Assembly: GCA_028287785.1 (NCBI GenBank)
Contig: JAQBOZ010000020.1
Coordinates: forward strand, 1-64,000
DNA length: 64,000 nucleotides
Direction of reading: 5' to 3'
DNA from: Chlorobiota bacterium
GTDB lineage: Bacteria > Bacteroidota > Ignavibacteria > OLB7
In this document: positions 43,130-61,922 of the stretch, in pieces
Layout of the letters: every line of letters begins with the position of its first letter
Position numbering within the stretch: position 1 is the stretch's first letter
Position numbers and translations under genes: made by a program
Notes under the pieces: generated by a model
Told to the model about the DNA's origin: nothing
Seen by the model: the letters and a program-made list of their open reading frames with translations, nothing else
Databases searched by the model: none

Positions 43130-45025
43130 CTACCAGACGATCACCGCGCCGAGACCGATCCCGACATCCAGCCCGCCAGTATCGGCCGGAACGGTCGTCC
43201 GCTGGTGCAGCTCGCTGGCGTTCTGGGATGTCTGCACGGTGCTCATGGAGACATCCGCCGCCGTGGCGCGGGTATCAACGTACCGGATCGTCGGCGTCAA
43301 CTCCAGCCTGATCCATCGGGATGGACGGAAGGTGATCGGGGCTTCCACGCCGGCGCTGAGATGCCGACCGCCAACTCCGCCCCAGACGCCCGGGCTTACG
43401 CCGATCTTCTGACTGAGCGCAATGGTATACCGATAGCCCGCGCCTCCGTATATCTCGCTCGCGGTTCCCGACGTGATATCCGCCCTTCGCGTCGATGGGG
43501 TCGTGATGCCGTTGACGGTAGTCCCCACCAGGCTGTCGGCGATCGTATTGCGATACCCGCTCAACCCCGCCACGGCGTAGATCTGATGCCGCCCGCCAAG
43601 CTCCACCCCGGCCCGGAACGCGCCATCGAGATTGACCTGACCGGATCTGAGGCTGATATAGCTGGCCGGCGTGATGGAGACGATAAACGTGACCGCCGGC
43701 GAACCCGACGATGCCGGGAGGGATTGATCGGTACTGGAGGCGGAAGCCAGGTTGGGAGCCCCCAGCGCGCTGTTGAACTGCCCCGAGTTGACGGCCGCGC
43801 TTATGGGCGAAAGGGCCTGCGCGACCGGGCTCGATGATGGAACATTTTGCGCGATATCGATATCTCCCTGCGAATCCGATGGACGGTTTCGGAGAGCGGA
43901 GGCAATCGTATCGGCAATGGCAAAATCCATCGACAGGGAGAGGAACGAGGAAGCGGGCGTATTCGCCTTCGTCACGGAATTGGAAACCTGCTGCATCTGC
44001 TCGGTTCGCGGGCCGGAGCCCAGCGCATGCCCATCCCCCAGCATTGGGGCCGACGGAGGAGGAGCAAGAGCGCTCGCTGATTTCATGGGAGGACTCTGCG
44101 CCAGCGCGATATCCTTGTTCTTCCCCATCGTCTGCGTCGGCGTGGTGTGAAAGGCAAAGGAAGTGTCCCGATAGGCAGCAATGCCCCCCGACTGATAGCC
44201 CCCCATCTGCCGGCTCATAAGCTTTGGAGCCTCCTTGAAGGAACGATCATCATCAGACTTGAGATCACGATCGAGCCTGCGCGCATCCGAGGCATGCTCC
44301 GCATCGGGAGATAACTGGTTGCCCAGATCCCCCCCCCTGGCTTCCCCCCAGCTCCCTTCCAACGTACCGGAGCCCTTTGCGGACTTCCTGTACACGATAT
44401 CATCCGATGCCATCAGGTGAGTCTCCCCCTTCGGAACGCTCTTCGAGGCACGCTCACCGCCATCGATCCGAACCGGCTCCTTCACGGAACCGGAAATATC
44501 CTTGCTCTCCGCCTTCCCCGTTACAGGCGGGGATGGCGATGAGAAGGTTCCTGTATTTGATGATGTGGTCTTCTCCGGCGCCGCCTGCGGCCGGGCATCG
44601 GTAAACACCGGTGATCTCATCCCGGCCGGCTTATCCTCCTCTCCGTTCCAGACGATCGCAACCGCGAGAAGCGCGGTGATAAACGGGATCAGCCAGATCG
44701 CGGCACGGCGACGGCGGCGTCCGTCGCGGACGGCGGGAGAGGGAATCGAACGGGCAGCCGCGGCAACCACCGGAGGCGATGCGGGAATCTCCTCAAGGGG
44801 CTTCATCCCCTCCTCGCGCTGAAGGCGACCGAAGAGGGCGGACCGCAGTTCCGGCGCGGGGGTCTGAAGCACCCGCTGGTCCCGCGCCACGGCCCGCAGA
44901 GCGATCTGCGCGCGGAAGAGCTTGCGCGCCTCCGGCGACACCGCCAGGCGATGATGCAGCTCCGCCTCGGCCTCGCTCGAAAGGTTGCCGTCGATGTATT
45001 GCGATATAAGGTCTTCGATATTCAT
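43130..45025 (-). CDS. Trans-envelope anti-sigma factor with C-terminal outer-membrane barrel, module 1
   Basis: About 631 residues with four parts. Residues 1-75 are a helical anti-sigma domain (DLISQYIDGNLSSEAEAELH, HRLAVSPEARKLF); the usual HxxxCxxC zinc site is absent. Residues about 105-128 are a basic stop (RRRRR) and one membrane helix (AAIWLIPFITALLAVAIVW). Residues about 130-440 are a Pro/Ser/Ala/Gly-rich linker with no fold signs, long enough to cross the periplasm. Residues about 445-632 are beta-barrel-like (VTFIVSITPASYISLRSG, HQIYAVAGLSGYRNT, GGAGYRYTIALS, RWIRLELTPTIRYV), ending GLGAVIVW with a terminal aromatic residue. It would hold the ECF sigma factor encoded upstream at the inner membrane while its barrel sits in the outer membrane. 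The frame begins with a GTG; the next codon, ATG at 45025, is taken. Confidence 0.75.
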   Translation of the reverse strand: MNIEDLISQYIDGNLSSEAEAELHHRLAVSPEARKLFRAQIALRAVARDQRVLQTPAPELRSALFGRLQREEGMKPLEEIPASPPVVAAAARSIPSPAVRDGRRRRRAAIWLIPFITALLAVAIVWNGEEDKPAGMRSPVFTDARPQAAPEKTTSSNTGTFSSPSPPVTGKAESKDISGSVKEPVRIDGGERASKSVPKGETHLMASDDIVYRKSAKGSGTLEGSWGEARGGDLGNQLSPDAEHASDARRLDRDLKSDDDRSFKEAPKLMSRQMGGYQSGGIAAYRDTSFAFHTTPTQTMGKNKDIALAQSPPMKSASALAPPPSAPMLGDGHALGSGPRTEQMQQVSNSVTKANTPASSFLSLSMDFAIADTIASALRNRPSDSQGDIDIAQNVPSSSPVAQALSPISAAVNSGQFNSALGAPNLASASSTDQSLPASSGSPAVTFIVSITPASYISLRSGQVNLDGAFRAGVELGGRHQIYAVAGLSGYRNTIADSLVGTTVNGITTPSTRRADITSGTASEIYGGAGYRYTIALSQKIGVSPGVWGGVGGRHLSAGVEAPITFRPSRWIRLELTPTIRYVDTRATAADVSMSTVQTSQNASELHQRTTVPADTGGLDVGIGLGAVIVW

Positions 45026-45106
45026 CACTGCTTACTCAACTGAATCGGACCGTGCATATGACTCATCACCATCGCCCCCCGGCTCCGCACCGGCATATCG
45101 GTGCGC

Positions 45107-45544
45107 TCACATCTTCGCGAATGAGAGGATATGGTTTCCATCTCCATAGTAGATCAGAAGGATCCTGCCATCACTCCAGTATCGAACGGACTTGGCGAGC
45201 GCGTCGAGATATTCATCCTCGGTAGCTATCGCGTCGCAACTCATCTTGGTGCGGAACATCGGCCCGGTAACGCTCAGCAGGGAATCATGGATCTGGTAGG
45301 GTCCGCCATAGCTGTTGCATCCTCCCCTGCCACCGAGCCGCGCGGAATCGGTGAGCAGCAGCGTGACTGTCGCGGTCGCGGGGACCGGCTTTTCCTCGCC
45401 GGAGATCGTCGAGAACGATCGCAGCTTCCAGGTGATGCCGGTGATATGGCTCACCGATGCCCCGGCGATCGGGTTGACGGAGGGTTTCTGGCATGCGCTC
45501 CAGACCACAGCAAGCAGTAACGTAAGAGATAGCGTTATTCTCAT
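45107..45544 (-). CDS. META-domain (HslJ-like) lipoprotein
   Basis: About 145 residues. It starts MRITLSLTLLLAVVWSAC, a lipoprotein signal with Cys18. The single META domain follows: ITGITWKLRSF, VTLLLTDSARLGGRGGCNSY, SLLSVTGPMFRTKMSCDA and EDEYLDALAKSVRYW. META proteins such as HslJ are envelope stress proteins, and the GGCNSY and MSC motifs may form a disulfide. It lies between the sigma and anti-sigma genes of operon 1, which suggests a role in sensing or a regulated product. An upstream start 14 codons earlier is less likely, as it buries the signal. Confidence 0.88.
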   Translation of the reverse strand: MRITLSLTLLLAVVWSACQKPSVNPIAGASVSHITGITWKLRSFSTISGEEKPVPATATVTLLLTDSARLGGRGGCNSYGGPYQIHDSLLSVTGPMFRTKMSCDAIATEDEYLDALAKSVRYWSDGRILLIYYGDGNHILSFAKM

Positions 45545-45590
45545 CCTCGCTCGCGACCATTTGTTCGATAGATTCCTTCCCGCCATGATC

Positions 45591-46250
45591 TCATCCCTCC
45601 GTTCCCAGAAATTTCTCCAGTGCCTTTCTCAGCGCCCTGCGCGCCCTGCTGATCCGCATCCGGGCCGCCTCCTGGGTGCAGCCGACCGTCGCGGCAACCT
45701 CTTCATATTCCAGGCCGTTGACCTCTCGGAGAACGTACACCTCCCGCAGCGATTGCGGCAGCAGCTCCACGCACGCCTGGAACCTGGCAAAGAGCGCCTC
45801 CCCCGTCAACTCATCCTCCTCGCCGAACAGCTTGGCAAACGATTCCTCGATCGGCACCATCAGCCGCTCGTCCCACCGATGGCTCTCCTCGTCCGAGATG
45901 GAGAGGGTCTGCCGCACGGTTCGCAGGTGGCTTATCGCCAGGTTGTGCGCCACTCTGAAAAGCCATCCCTTCAGGTTCTGAATTGTCCTGTATTCCTCTC
46001 CCCGCTCCTTCGACGCGGCATATCTGGACCGCTCGCGGAAAAGACGGACAAACGTCTCCTGAAACAGGTCATCGGCCACCTCCGGGGAATCCTTGACGAT
46101 GGTGCGCAGATAGGTAAGGACGCTCTTCTCGTACCGCTCGTAGAGGCTCACGAACGCTCGTTCATCGCCGAGCAGGAATCGTTCAAGAAGCGATTCATCC
46201 CCTTCGGCAACCGCCGTCCCGGCTCCGTTATGTCCCCTGTGTTCAGCCAC
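45591..46250 (-). CDS. ECF-type sigma factor, module 1
   Basis: A 219-residue sigma-70 family factor of the extracytoplasmic-function group. Region 2 reads FVSLYERYEKSVLTYLRTIV, DDLFQETFVRLFRE and LKGWLFRVAHNLAISHLR; region 4 reads LPQSLREVYVLREVNGLEYE, VAATVGCTQEAARMRISRAR. It should direct RNA polymerase to envelope-related promoters when released by the barrel-linked anti-sigma factor encoded two genes downstream. The start codon is GTG at 46250. A promoter-like motif lies 32 bases upstream. Confidence 0.93.
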   Translation of the reverse strand: MAEHRGHNGAGTAVAEGDESLLERFLLGDERAFVSLYERYEKSVLTYLRTIVKDSPEVADDLFQETFVRLFRERSRYAASKERGEEYRTIQNLKGWLFRVAHNLAISHLRTVRQTLSISDEESHRWDERLMVPIEESFAKLFGEEDELTGEALFARFQACVELLPQSLREVYVLREVNGLEYEEVAATVGCTQEAARMRISRARRALRKALEKFLGTEG

Positions 46251-57512: not shown

Positions 57513-59135
57513 CTATCGGACGATGCTGAACTTGGCATTCAACATCCGCGCTCCAACGCGGATCACGGCCATATAGGCGCCGGCGGGGAGCGAGGCCACA
57601 TCGACATGTTCGTCATACGTCCCGGCGACACGGTTTCCAAGCGGACGTGCAAGCACCCCCTGTCCAAGGCTGTTGACGATCTGCAGCGACACATCGGAAC
57701 GCTCGGCAATCGCATAGTGGATGGTGACGGAGCCACGAGCCGGGTTCGGCATGACGCCAACGCTGACGCGGGCGTTGGCGTTATCGTCGTTGATCGATGA
57801 TGCAATGATATTCAGGAAGGTATTGCCGTAATAGTCATCGATCACGGTGGCGGCCATATGCTCCAGTTGATCGCTGCCGGCCTTCGACACGACCGGCGGG
57901 TCCTCCGACTTGCGTGTTTTCCCGAACGTGCCATCGAGCACCGCGAATGCCACCGCGAAGTGGGCGGTATCGCCGGGAAGCATCGTAAACATGGTGGAGG
58001 CAAGAAGGGCGCGAAGATCGGCGGCTCCAAGATCATCGGTCAGCATCCCGCTCCTCATGAAATCATACCGCACCGCCGATGTGGTCGGATTCTCCTCGAA
58101 CGTCCAGTGCGGGAACGATCCGATTCTCCCATCGTTGCGATAACTCTTTCGCAGGCTGTTGTCCACCACCCCGTACTCGTTGGTAACGGGGGCTTCCAGC
58201 AGGACCATCGCCAGCGGGCGGAAATCGCTGCCGGGCTCGGGATCGGTCCAGGCCATGGCGGAGCGCAGATCGGGACGTTCGGCATAATATCGCACGTGAT
58301 CGTTATCCTCCTTTCCCATGTCCGGATCGGACGCCTCGGCCACCACGCAGTCGAAGAGGGTATCGTGGGACATGTTGACGATCTCATACTGAAGCACCAC
58401 GACATGCTGATACCGGCCCTGCCGCCAGGCGTAGATATTCTGCTCGATCTGCAGGCCGATGGGATAGCCGTTCATCCGCGCCTGCGATGTCGAGATCCCC
58501 TTGTACTGCGTCAGATCGGCATCGTGATAGCGGGCCATGAACTGCTCATCCACCCCCGGCATGAACGCGGGGGCGCTGTAGCCGGCGCTCATTGCACGAT
58601 CGATATTGAGGGGGACGAAGATACCGGGGCTCATCGGCACGGGAAACTTGCCGTAGGAGAGCCAGAGCGGCCAGTTTCCGGTTCCCACCGGCGGGACAAT
58701 GGGACGGTTATACAGGCCGGTCATATGATCGTAATCGGCCGAGGTGTAGAGATTGGGTCGCGCGAGCGGCTTGTCAGGATTCTCCATGACATATCCCTCT
58801 CCGGGAGTGGCCCAGCTTGTGAGCGAGAGCGGATTATAGGTAAAGAAGACAAGCGGGCTGGGGACGATAACTCCCATCGAATCCTTCACATTCTTCTTTG
58901 TGCCGAACCAGAGGCCACTGCCGTAGAGATAGCCCGTCTTGGAGCCGCGCGGGACGATAAACCCGGTGCCGACGTTATCCTTCGTCGTATCGAGAGCAAA
59001 AATTCCGGTGTTGGTCGCATAGAATTCCACCTGGCTTTCCCAGCTCTGCTTCACCTGAATATTCTCCGGCTGCGCGTGCGCGGCCACCGCGAACAGCGTT
59101 CCCGCGCAGAGCACCGAAAATATCTGCTTGACCAT
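57513..59135 (-). CDS. Large exported protein with T9SS type A sorting domain
   Basis: About 540 residues: signal peptide (VKQIFSVLCAGTLFAVAAHA), a long mature region without a recognised domain (YLYGSGLWFGTKKNVKDSMG, HVVVLQYEIVNMSHDTLFDC, FRPLAMVLLEAPVTNEYGVV), then a clear sorting domain (VGVMPNPARGSVTIHYAIAE, VSLQIVNSLGQGVLARPLGN, SLPAGAYMAVIRVGARMLNA, ending KFSIVR). The mature part resembles T9SS surface proteins widespread in Kapabacteria/Ignavibacteria genomes. It lies downstream of the second anti-sigma gene and its lipoprotein, on the same strand, so it may be part of that operon. Confidence 0.87.
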   Translation of the reverse strand: MVKQIFSVLCAGTLFAVAAHAQPENIQVKQSWESQVEFYATNTGIFALDTTKDNVGTGFIVPRGSKTGYLYGSGLWFGTKKNVKDSMGVIVPSPLVFFTYNPLSLTSWATPGEGYVMENPDKPLARPNLYTSADYDHMTGLYNRPIVPPVGTGNWPLWLSYGKFPVPMSPGIFVPLNIDRAMSAGYSAPAFMPGVDEQFMARYHDADLTQYKGISTSQARMNGYPIGLQIEQNIYAWRQGRYQHVVVLQYEIVNMSHDTLFDCVVAEASDPDMGKEDNDHVRYYAERPDLRSAMAWTDPEPGSDFRPLAMVLLEAPVTNEYGVVDNSLRKSYRNDGRIGSFPHWTFEENPTTSAVRYDFMRSGMLTDDLGAADLRALLASTMFTMLPGDTAHFAVAFAVLDGTFGKTRKSEDPPVVSKAGSDQLEHMAATVIDDYYGNTFLNIIASSINDDNANARVSVGVMPNPARGSVTIHYAIAERSDVSLQIVNSLGQGVLARPLGNRVAGTYDEHVDVASLPAGAYMAVIRVGARMLNAKFSIVR

Positions 59136-59268: not shown

Positions 59269-59880
59269 TCATGGCTGCAACTGGAGCCTGAACACTCCGC
59301 GATCCACCTGTATAACCGTATCGGCCTCGGTGCTGTATCCCGTAAATGCGAATGTGCCAACCAGCACGCCACGTTCACGATCGATCCTGGCGATATGAAG
59401 CACGCCACTGGAACGGTTCACCCCCGTCTGAAACAGCTCGGGAAACCCGCCCATCTTGCGGGAATAGGATGCGCCGTATCGTGGGGCTTCGTTGGAATCG
59501 ATTCCCTTGGGGGCTGAGTAGGCGGCATTGATGGCGTAGGTTCCGGTATCCCTTACATTATCCATCCTGAGCGACATCACCTCGTAATCCTGTCCCGCCA
59601 GTCCGTATCGGGTGGCCTGCACGGTAAAGTAGTATCCGGCGTTGCGAACCCCGTTGTGGAATGCAGGGCGAAGCACCTCGGTGGCGAACACAACCTGCTC
59701 TCCGTGAACCTGCGCGGAGATGGAATCCCCCGGCGCGCCGATGAACCCGGCCGTGGTGATCACCGAATCGATATTGACCAGGGTGACACGGCGATACGTA
59801 TCAACGTCGAGGGGGCTGCGGCATGCGCCAGCGGCCCCCACAATGAGAAAGAGTGCAATGATGATGGCATTTCTCGTCAT
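59269..59880 (-). CDS. Envelope lipoprotein, module 2
   Basis: A 203-residue protein starting MTRNAIIIALFLIVGAAGAC, a lipoprotein leader with Cys20. The mature part (RRVTLVNIDSVITTAGFIGA, EQVVFATEVLRPAFHNGVRN, YEVMSLRMDNVRDTGTYAIN) is rich in beta structure; no domain is recognised. It starts 43 bases after the stop of the second anti-sigma gene, so it belongs to that operon. Module 1 also encodes a lipoprotein, though an unrelated one. Confidence 0.72.
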   Translation of the reverse strand: MTRNAIIIALFLIVGAAGACRSPLDVDTYRRVTLVNIDSVITTAGFIGAPGDSISAQVHGEQVVFATEVLRPAFHNGVRNAGYYFTVQATRYGLAGQDYEVMSLRMDNVRDTGTYAINAAYSAPKGIDSNEAPRYGASYSRKMGGFPELFQTGVNRSSGVLHIARIDRERGVLVGTFAFTGYSTEADTVIQVDRGVFRLQLQP

Positions 59881-59923
59881 GCGATCAATCCTGCTCCTGA
59901 TGCGATACGGTGAGGCTCCGTGA

Positions 59924-61237
59924 TCAGAACCACAGAGCAAATCCCCCGTGAACATTCAGATTGGTGCTTGTAATCGTCTGACCACGGAACTGCGACCAGA
60001 GGAACCACGAAGAGAGCCCGATATCGCCGGAGAAACCATCAGCCACCCGAAACTCGGCGTCCACGCCAAGCGTTGCAAACGGGCCGATCGATGTTCCGCC
60101 GCCACCGAATTCCACGGATGTCCCAAAGATCTCCGAGCTTATAAGCTGCGATGATACGAATCCTCGCCCATATAAGAACGTCGGCGATTGCTCGATGATC
60201 GTATCCAGAGCGGCGCCGCCGGTGTTGGTGTGAAGCACCTGCGAGAACTGCGTGCCGCCGAACGCCGCCCCGAACCGGAGCGGTGAGCGCAATCCAAACA
60301 GCCCGCCGTCGAAGCTCCCCATGATCTCGCGATCGGTCAGCGTGTTCGACTGCGCCGGAACGCCGTAGATATGCGGCAGCGAGAGGCGGAAATTATTTCG
60401 TATCCCAACCATCCATCCCTTTCGGTCATCCCCCGTATGGAGGGCATCCATCGGGTTGACGGTGTTCCCGGAGGAGAGCCGGGAGATGGGAGCCGGCGCG
60501 GTGGTCACGCTCGCCGGCATCCGCGTGGCAAATGCCCTGGGAAGAACCATCGTAACCGATGGGGCGGAGAGCGCGGGAACCGTCGCGACGGGAAGTGTCG
60601 CGGCGGCATCCGGCGTGGAACGATCGGCACGATGCGGAGCCGACAGGGCCGCGAGCGATGGGGTGGCTCCGGCGCGACTCTTCAGCCGTGAGATCTCGCC
60701 GAGCAGACGACCGTTCGTCGAGGCAAGGGTTGCGTATCGGGAGCGCGTATCAACCAGAGAATCGCGGAGGAGAGTGATCTCCTCCGGCGATTCCCCGGCA
60801 AATCGCGTTTCTCCTGGTTGACGCGATATCACTACCGTATCGACCTTCCGCGCGGCAATGGCGGAGGCGGGAACGGTCTTTCCACTTACCAGATAACCGA
60901 CGGCGGTTCCAAGCCCGATCAGAAGGACCCCCGCAAGCGCGGCGAAGCCCGGCCGCTGCCAGAACCCGAGCGACGGGGACGGAGGAACGGGAGTCGGCGG
61001 GGGAACCGGCGTCACGGCATCGACCGCGCCGATCCCGGCCCAGATGGCGGCATCGGCGCTCCGCGAGGGAGCCAGCCCGGCACCGAGCGTGCCGAAGGAG
61101 CGCCCCATCTTCACCTGCTCCATCAGCAGCAGCCGCTTTTCGGGGGCCACAGCCAGCACATGAAGCAGTTCAGCGACCTGCGTCTCATCATGGAGCTCGC
61201 CGTCGAGAAGCGCGGTTATCTGTTCGTGGATATTCAT
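59924..61237 (-). CDS. Trans-envelope anti-sigma factor with C-terminal outer-membrane barrel, module 2
   Basis: A 437-residue protein with the same layout as the gene at 43130 but very different sequence. Residues 1-50 are the anti-sigma domain (QITALLDGELHDETQVAELL, HVLAVAPEKRLLL), again without zinc-binding cysteines; LAVxPExR is shared with module 1. A Pro-rich stretch (VPPPTPVPPSP) is followed by one membrane helix at 98-117 (FAALAGVLLIGLGTAVGYLV). Residues about 150-187 can form a coiled coil (EEITLLRDSLVDTRSRYATL), then comes an Ala/Pro/Ser-rich linker. From about 273 a barrel follows (GWMVGIRNNFRLSLPHIYG, LRFGAAFGGTQFSQV, SSQLISSEIFGTSVEFGGG, FATLGVDAEFRVADGFSGDI), ending GGFALWF. The sigma gene lies 94 bases upstream. 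Confidence 0.78.
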   Translation of the reverse strand: MNIHEQITALLDGELHDETQVAELLHVLAVAPEKRLLLMEQVKMGRSFGTLGAGLAPSRSADAAIWAGIGAVDAVTPVPPPTPVPPSPSLGFWQRPGFAALAGVLLIGLGTAVGYLVSGKTVPASAIAARKVDTVVISRQPGETRFAGESPEEITLLRDSLVDTRSRYATLASTNGRLLGEISRLKSRAGATPSLAALSAPHRADRSTPDAAATLPVATVPALSAPSVTMVLPRAFATRMPASVTTAPAPISRLSSGNTVNPMDALHTGDDRKGWMVGIRNNFRLSLPHIYGVPAQSNTLTDREIMGSFDGGLFGLRSPLRFGAAFGGTQFSQVLHTNTGGAALDTIIEQSPTFLYGRGFVSSQLISSEIFGTSVEFGGGGTSIGPFATLGVDAEFRVADGFSGDIGLSSWFLWSQFRGQTITSTNLNVHGGFALWF

Positions 61238-61331
61238 AGCGATTCAGAAGTTCGAAAATCCTGCAACGTTCATCATTGCGATACGGGGACTGATCAGAGC
61301 CGCCCATTATCATCAGCATCAATCGAAGGCA

Positions 61332-61865
61332 TCACATCGAGTCATCGCGGAGCAAGGGGCGAAGAATTTTCTGGAGCGCCTGTTTAGCGCGATAAATCCG
61401 GTTCTTTACGATATCGTGCGTCACGTTAAGCTGTTTGGCTATCTCATCATAGCTGTACCCCTCGAACTCGCAGAGGAGAAAAGCCTCGCGGTAGTTGGGG
61501 TTGATCGCGGCAAGCGCGTTCCTGAGATGGACGTTGGTATCGGCCGTGGCCGGGTCCACCTCATAGGCGCGTTCCGGCACATTCTCCAGCGAAACGTGGC
61601 GATTGCTGGTACGGAGCACATTCAGGCAGCGGGTACGGGCGGCGGTCAGGAGATATCCCCGGACATTGTGCATCACCTGGCCGGCCCGGCATGCCCGGTA
61701 GAAGTTGATGAACACTTCCTGATAAACATCCTCGGCGACGGCCTCGTCGCTGAGCATCAGAAGACAGAACCGGTAGATCCCCGCCTTGTAGCGTTCGAAC
61801 AGAAGGCTGAACGCGGCATGATCCCCGGCGCTGACACGTTCGGCGAGCGCCTGATCTTCAATCAT
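61332..61865 (-). CDS. ECF-type sigma factor, module 2
   Basis: A 177-residue ECF sigma factor. Region 2 is AFSLLFERYKAGIYRFCLLM, AEDVYQEVFINFYRACRAG and VRGYLLTAARTRCLNVLR; region 4 is NPNYREAFLLCEFEGYSYDE, IAKQLNVTHDIVKNRIYRAK. It is only distantly related to the module 1 factor. I chose the ATG at 61865, just before DQALAERVSAGDHAAF; open frame continues upstream but is not sigma-like. A promoter-like motif again lies 32 bases before the start. Confidence 0.93.
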   Translation of the reverse strand: MIEDQALAERVSAGDHAAFSLLFERYKAGIYRFCLLMLSDEAVAEDVYQEVFINFYRACRAGQVMHNVRGYLLTAARTRCLNVLRTSNRHVSLENVPERAYEVDPATADTNVHLRNALAAINPNYREAFLLCEFEGYSYDEIAKQLNVTHDIVKNRIYRAKQALQKILRPLLRDDSM

Positions 61866-61896
61866 CCGAGGGTTAGCAATAGCAACCAACGTTTCA

Positions 61897-61922
61897 CCGT
61901 ACGATCGTAAGAAGGGAGTAAC
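61897..61922 (-). promoter_or_regulatory. Candidate autoregulatory ECF promoter, module 2
   Basis: Leftward GTTAC at 61922-61918, a 14-base spacer, then CGTACGG at 61903-61897; the end is 32 bases from the sigma start codon, the same distance as in module 1. Visual match only. Confidence 0.4.

Follow-up and report, generated by a model that had tools for sequence, protein, structure and literature searches.

A probable Dma-like anti-sigma protein with a predicted outer-membrane barrel and a linked lipoprotein gene in a Chlorobiota bacterium

How could a sigma factor held at the inner membrane be informed about the state of the outer membrane, and which protein would do the sensing? This question is raised by four genes on the minus strand of the 64,000-nucleotide stretch of Chlorobiota DNA analyzed here, which we call the window. 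The first of them encodes an ECF sigma factor (positions 61,332-61,865) with Pfam matches to Sigma70_r4_2 (4e-15) and Sigma70_r2 (6.5e-10), for which a start at MIEDQ is likely within a longer listed open reading frame (62,051 to 61,332). It is followed by the gene for a 437-residue protein (59,924-61,237), which we regard as a dual-membrane anti-sigma protein on the basis of its AlphaFold model, its orthologues and its position next to the sigma gene. A gene for a DUF6252 lipoprotein (59,269-59,880) and a gene for a type-A cargo protein of the type IX secretion system (T9SS; 57,513-59,135) complete the cluster, confirming the gene order described in the first-pass annotation. Orthologues of the 437-residue protein are present in three relatives and are 37-41% identical over the full length, and its domain plan is therefore not a product of chance.

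The 437-residue protein contains no cysteine and ends in ALWF. It was modeled with AlphaFold from an alignment of 39 relatives. In the model, an N-terminal domain (residues 1-75; 61,013-61,237) is formed by four helices (residues 3-11, 18-30, 32-55 and 59-74) with pLDDT values mostly between 73 and 97. It is followed by an inner-membrane helix (residues 96-117; 60,887-60,952; hydropathy 2.09), a predicted periplasmic coiled-coil helix (residues 151-188; 60,674-60,787), an Ala/Pro-rich linker predicted to be disordered (residues 190-262; 60,452-60,670; pLDDT below 50) and an eight-stranded barrel (residues 274-436; 59,930-60,418), the strands of which have pLDDT values mostly above 80 and, from residue 350 onwards, above 90. 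All elements of the four-part plan that had been read from the sequence earlier are thus present in the model and in the expected order. Residues 118-273, which connect the membrane helix to the barrel, comprise the 38-residue helix and more than 100 other, mostly disordered residues and should, judged by contour length, be long enough to span the periplasm.

For the barrel, Foldseek ranked OmpA and NspA first, with a probability of 1.0 each, and VIA-align gave Z scores of 15-16 to OprF, NspA and OmpA and of 17.3 to a Legionella porin. By all three approaches the C-terminus is predicted to be an outer-membrane barrel of the OmpA type and not a periplasmic globular domain. The fold is shared with OmpA, NspA and OprF at an identity of only about 7-10%, and unlike the window protein these eight-stranded barrels carry no anti-sigma part. 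Across the family, 54 of 76 proteins end in phenylalanine and three in tryptophan.

The assignment of the N-terminal domain draws on the relatives. By itself, the 437-residue protein had no match in Pfam or NCBIfam, anti-sigma families included, whereas single members among the 39 relatives matched RseA_N (nine proteins, best E value 2e-4), zf-HC2 (13 proteins, 8e-4) and NCBIfam anti-sigma families (12 proteins, 7e-7). A profile of 80 residues was built from 28 relatives, and its best match in the PDB was RseA in complex with sigma-E (1or7; E 0.07). In 75 of 76 proteins the first 80 residues are devoid of cysteines, the usual zinc ligands, which is RseA-like rather than typical of ZAS domains. 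The domain thus appears to be of the RseA or zinc-less type.

As a check on the proposed plan, the first-pass annotation had suggested a genome-wide count of such proteins and an inspection of relatives for sigma genes next to them. A search of the window's own genome with the N-domain profile gave 15 places, the weakest of which, a 99-codon frame, was left out of the count. Nine of the copies read are of barrel-bearing size (423-632 residues), the window copy being the only one modeled and the barrels of the other eight being judged by length and C-terminal sequence, and five are barrel-less. The count is thus nine barrel-bearing copies in one genome of 4.75 Mb. An ECF sigma gene is present at all 14 copies read, including the barrel-less ones. 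Of all 77 distinct N-domain frames, 76 are preceded by an ECF sigma frame in the same orientation, 75 of them within about 230 nucleotides, and the sole locus without one (L017) is situated at a contig edge. The adjacency of sigma genes therefore holds across the relatives as well. Taken together, fold, family matches and adjacency suggest that the N-terminal domain holds the adjacent sigma factor. The two genomes of the next genus (L060 and L061) both carry a homopolymer tract of about nine T followed by eight or nine G just upstream of the sigma gene (about L060:3240-3265, same place in L061); tracts of this kind could change in length and thereby turn expression on or off. Furthermore, split versions were observed in two genomes (L137 in G183 and L144 in G231), where an anti-sigma protein of 263-299 residues with a membrane helix is followed by a separate barrel-like gene, which hints at a route of fusion or fission. 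In the window's own genome, the gene after one barrel-less N-domain protein encodes a secreted protein, which could be a barrel in its own right (L230; G000:C23:57000-61000), and the two possibly represent a split sensor.

A paralogous module is also encoded on the minus strand of the window. It consists of an ECF sigma factor (45,591-46,250; NCBIfam sigma70-ECF, 5e-25), a META-domain lipoprotein (45,107-45,586; PF03724, 1e-15) and an anti-sigma protein (43,130-45,022, from a 632-residue open reading frame starting at 45,028), the N-terminal domain of which aligns with E 4e-25. The lipoprotein gene lies here between the sigma and anti-sigma genes, whereas in the module under study it is found downstream of the anti-sigma gene. 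The earlier view that the two modules share little but the motif LAVxPExR has to be revised, as their first 75 or so residues are homologous throughout. That the plan is conserved and the sequence is not holds for the barrels, between which no likeness was detectable by hhalign (probability 17%), and does not hold for the N-terminal domains.

The four-part plan is not new. It is already that of the Dma family, which was reportedly founded by Pardue et al. in PNAS in 2024. Dma proteins of gut Bacteroides, which control the production of outer-membrane vesicles, have in common with the window protein an N-terminal anti-sigma domain, a transmembrane helix, a disordered tether, a C-terminal barrel and an adjacent sigma gene, in their case of group ECF21 (PMC13088901). 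The gene dma2 is part of a three-gene operon with BT_1557, which encodes a DUF4943 protein, as third gene; deletion of dma2 strongly raises BT_1557, and deletion of BT_1557 leaves the vesiculation of the dma2 mutant unaltered (PMC13088901). Orthologous dma2 loci were found by means of DUF4943 (L104 and L105), and the third gene there encodes a DUF4943 lipoprotein, so that a lipoprotein as third gene is common to these loci and to the window. What is novel here is this linkage of a third-gene lipoprotein.

The window lipoprotein has the lipobox GAAGAC and matches DUF6252 (PF19765) with 31.1 bits at a cut-off of 27.2. Its model (mean pLDDT 70) is rich in beta structure and has a disordered tail, and a PDB search with this fold gave no match below E 0.001. 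When loci of barrel-bearing proteins were examined with a lipobox test, 60 of the 70 loci that could be assessed had a lipoprotein start immediately downstream. As a background, the test was positive at 101 of 2000 random positions of the same DNA (5%) and behind 36 of 175 stops of other frames of at least 250 codons. Barrel-less paralogues had a downstream lipoprotein in one of 24 cases, and that one resembles an ordinary signal peptide. The difference between barrel-bearing and barrel-less loci gives a Fisher p of 4e-13, in which independence is overstated since the loci are related. In the Dma lineage, too, a lipoprotein was found at seven of 15 loci with barrel-bearing (long) proteins as compared to none of ten barrel-less loci (p 0.02). 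The earlier guess that the lipoprotein is the partner of the barrel thus gains strong support from gene neighborhood. At the nearest orthologues outside the genus (L060 and L061), sigma and anti-sigma genes are present and no lipoprotein gene adjoins them; the lipoprotein is therefore either dispensable in these two genomes or encoded elsewhere.

The bodies of the lipoproteins are of several unrelated kinds, among them DUF6252 in the window, vWA (L210), META (L226 and the paralogous module) and others without a family. DUF6252 was rejected as a universal partner, since the own genome has five DUF6252 genes and none of them except the window copy adjoins an anti-sigma gene, and META/HslJ, which was seen in two loci only, was rejected likewise. 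Similarity between the lipoproteins tracks that of the anti-sigma protein (partial Mantel 0.17 with p 0.004 for the barrel, 0.17 with p < 0.001 for the N-terminal domain) and is not linked to that of the sigma factor (partial Mantel 0.007), a signal that is modest and not barrel-specific. In the same genome as the paralogous module, a lipoprotein with three META (HslJ-like) repeats lies behind another anti-sigma gene (L226:2878-4164).

In the barrel clan of the window protein, the residues that follow the lipidated cysteine are kept as C-x-S-P-L-D-x-D-x-P-R, even though the bodies behind them differ (DUF6252, vWA). The window lipoprotein carries an imperfect copy of this tag, CRSPLDVDTYRR (59,788-59,823), with TYRR for TPR, and in the genus relative L059 the tail is degenerate. 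Searched as a DNA pattern over 217 genomes, the tail gave nine matches. In eight cases the match lies in a lipoprotein encoded immediately behind such a barrel protein, and three of these (two in G015, one in G435) are independent of the building of the motif. The remaining match falls in a frame that has no signal peptide and is not a lipoprotein. The C-x-S-P-L-D tag is absent from the other barrel clans, and their lipoprotein families carry other tails. Its conservation suggests that, in the window's clan, the tail probably docks the lipoprotein onto the barrel. Threading of the tail through the barrel lumen is thought unlikely and docking at the barrel rim is favored, because the barrel of E. 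coli OmpA offers the RcsF tail no open channel (PMC7553776). Two vWA lipoproteins behind barrel-bearing anti-sigma proteins sit on the conserved tail (L210:2009-2740, assigned by Pfam, and L211:635-1411, assigned by eye), and a long lipoprotein of more than 400 codons with this tail was also seen directly after a barrel protein (L263:1384-2667).

We consider it likely, with a probability of roughly 0.7, that sigma factor, dual-membrane anti-sigma protein and lipoprotein form a three-component unit that works like the Bacteroides Dma systems, with the lipoprotein docked on the barrel and the sigma factor released by proteolysis. The RseA-like domain would hold the ECF sigma factor at the inner membrane and would be tethered by membrane helix, coiled coil and disordered linker to the predicted eight-stranded barrel in the outer membrane. 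The downstream lipoprotein would dock on this barrel, in the window's clan probably via the residues after its cysteine, and, as the pattern of conservation suggests, its variable body together with the barrel loops may read the state of the outer membrane or the cell surface. A change in the barrel-lipoprotein complex, or a failure of its assembly, would expose the linker to a periplasmic protease, and by analogy with RseA an intramembrane protease would then cut the membrane helix and free the sigma factor. Three M50-family proteases are encoded in the own genome, as they are in every control genome. We suggest only tentatively, at somewhat below even odds, that such proteins are two-protein sensors in which lipoproteins of exchangeable kinds (with DUF6252, vWA or unnamed bodies, or with META in other clans) are plugged into the barrel by a conserved tail, and that this architecture originated, or was built anew, with an RseA-like domain and apart from Dma.

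Alternatively, the barrel could be a sensor of its own assembly only, misfolding of which would make the aromatic residue at its C-terminus accessible to a DegS-like protease, and the lipoprotein could be a member of the regulon and not a partner. The RseA-like domain, the frequent C-terminal phenylalanine and the behavior of BT_1557, which responds to loss of dma2 and does not affect the vesiculation of the mutant (PMC13088901), all fit this explanation, but the lipoproteins accompany the proteins that have a barrel rather than the paralogues that lack one, which are also encoded behind ECF sigma genes, and a conserved tail on unrelated bodies is unexpected for mere regulon members. We regard it as improbable. 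Less probable still is that the unit chiefly controls the T9SS cargo, which carries a C-terminal sorting domain (TIGR04183, 28.6 bits at a cut-off of 23), and that the lipoprotein acts in cargo export instead of sensing. In L059 the gene order is that of the window, with all four genes present, but no cargo gene is found beside the orthologues in L060 and L061, lipoprotein linkage extends class-wide, and a simple pattern scan of the regions upstream of the sigma and cargo genes revealed no shared ECF-like promoter. The cargo, which the first-pass annotation had put forward as a target, is thus a weak candidate, linked in just two genomes of the same genus.

The unit could also share its descent with Dma. 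A true but diverged Dma member, with sigma factor, anti-sigma domain and barrel all sharing one ancestor with Bacteroides Dma and its Das sigma factors, would agree with the common plan, the sigma adjacency and the lipoprotein third gene of the Dma2 loci (PMC13088901). The barrels show a weak likeness at the C-terminus only (hhalign probability 58% over 52 columns), which could also be explained by the shared barrel fold. The N-terminal domains, however, differ in size and type, being RseA/ZAS-like with about 75 residues in the window and about 45 residues long with a conserved tryptophan in Dma, and their profiles do not align (hhalign probability 0.2). Matches to the Dma N-domain profile occurred in 53 of 198 genomes, not one of which belongs to the window's class, whereas the window profile was found on long frames only inside the window's class and outside of it on short frames of ordinary anti-sigma size. 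In a tree of 89 sigma factors, those of the Das/ECF21 type form one clade (support 100/99) that excludes the sigma factors of the window's class. Common ancestry with Dma is accordingly doubtful. As N-terminal domain and sigma factor belong to other lineages than Dma and ECF21, the unit is not a demonstrated Dma member, and the sequence comparisons argue for a Dma-like system that would work like Dma without being filed under it. Three Dma proteins are reported for B. thetaiotaomicron (PMC13088901), as compared to nine copies in the window's genome, and the Dma-like plan is widespread in the window's class.

If the lipoprotein is the partner of the barrel, it would supply the missing sensor of Dma-type proteins, and BT_1557 beside dma2 would allow this to be tested simply in a species amenable to genetics. 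The plan of an anti-sigma protein reaching from the inner to the outer membrane would then have two dissimilar anti-sigma domains as its basis, and with nine copies in one 4.75-Mb genome it would be a major mode of signaling in another bacterial class.

The C-terminal part of RseA, the anti-sigma factor of E. coli sigma-E, is a soluble periplasmic domain without barrel and without coiled coil. RseA (PDB 1or7) and the window protein have in common an N-terminal anti-sigma domain without zinc-ligand cysteines, an L/M-D-G motif near the start of this domain and one transmembrane helix after it, whereas coiled coil and barrel set the window protein apart. The nearest lipoprotein-barrel sensor is given by the complexes of RcsF with OmpA or OmpC, a pairing of a lipoprotein with an outer-membrane barrel that reports on the envelope in E. 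coli (PMC9907809, PMC7553776). RcsF signals to IgaA, whereas in the unit described here the barrel would belong to the anti-sigma protein and form its outer end.
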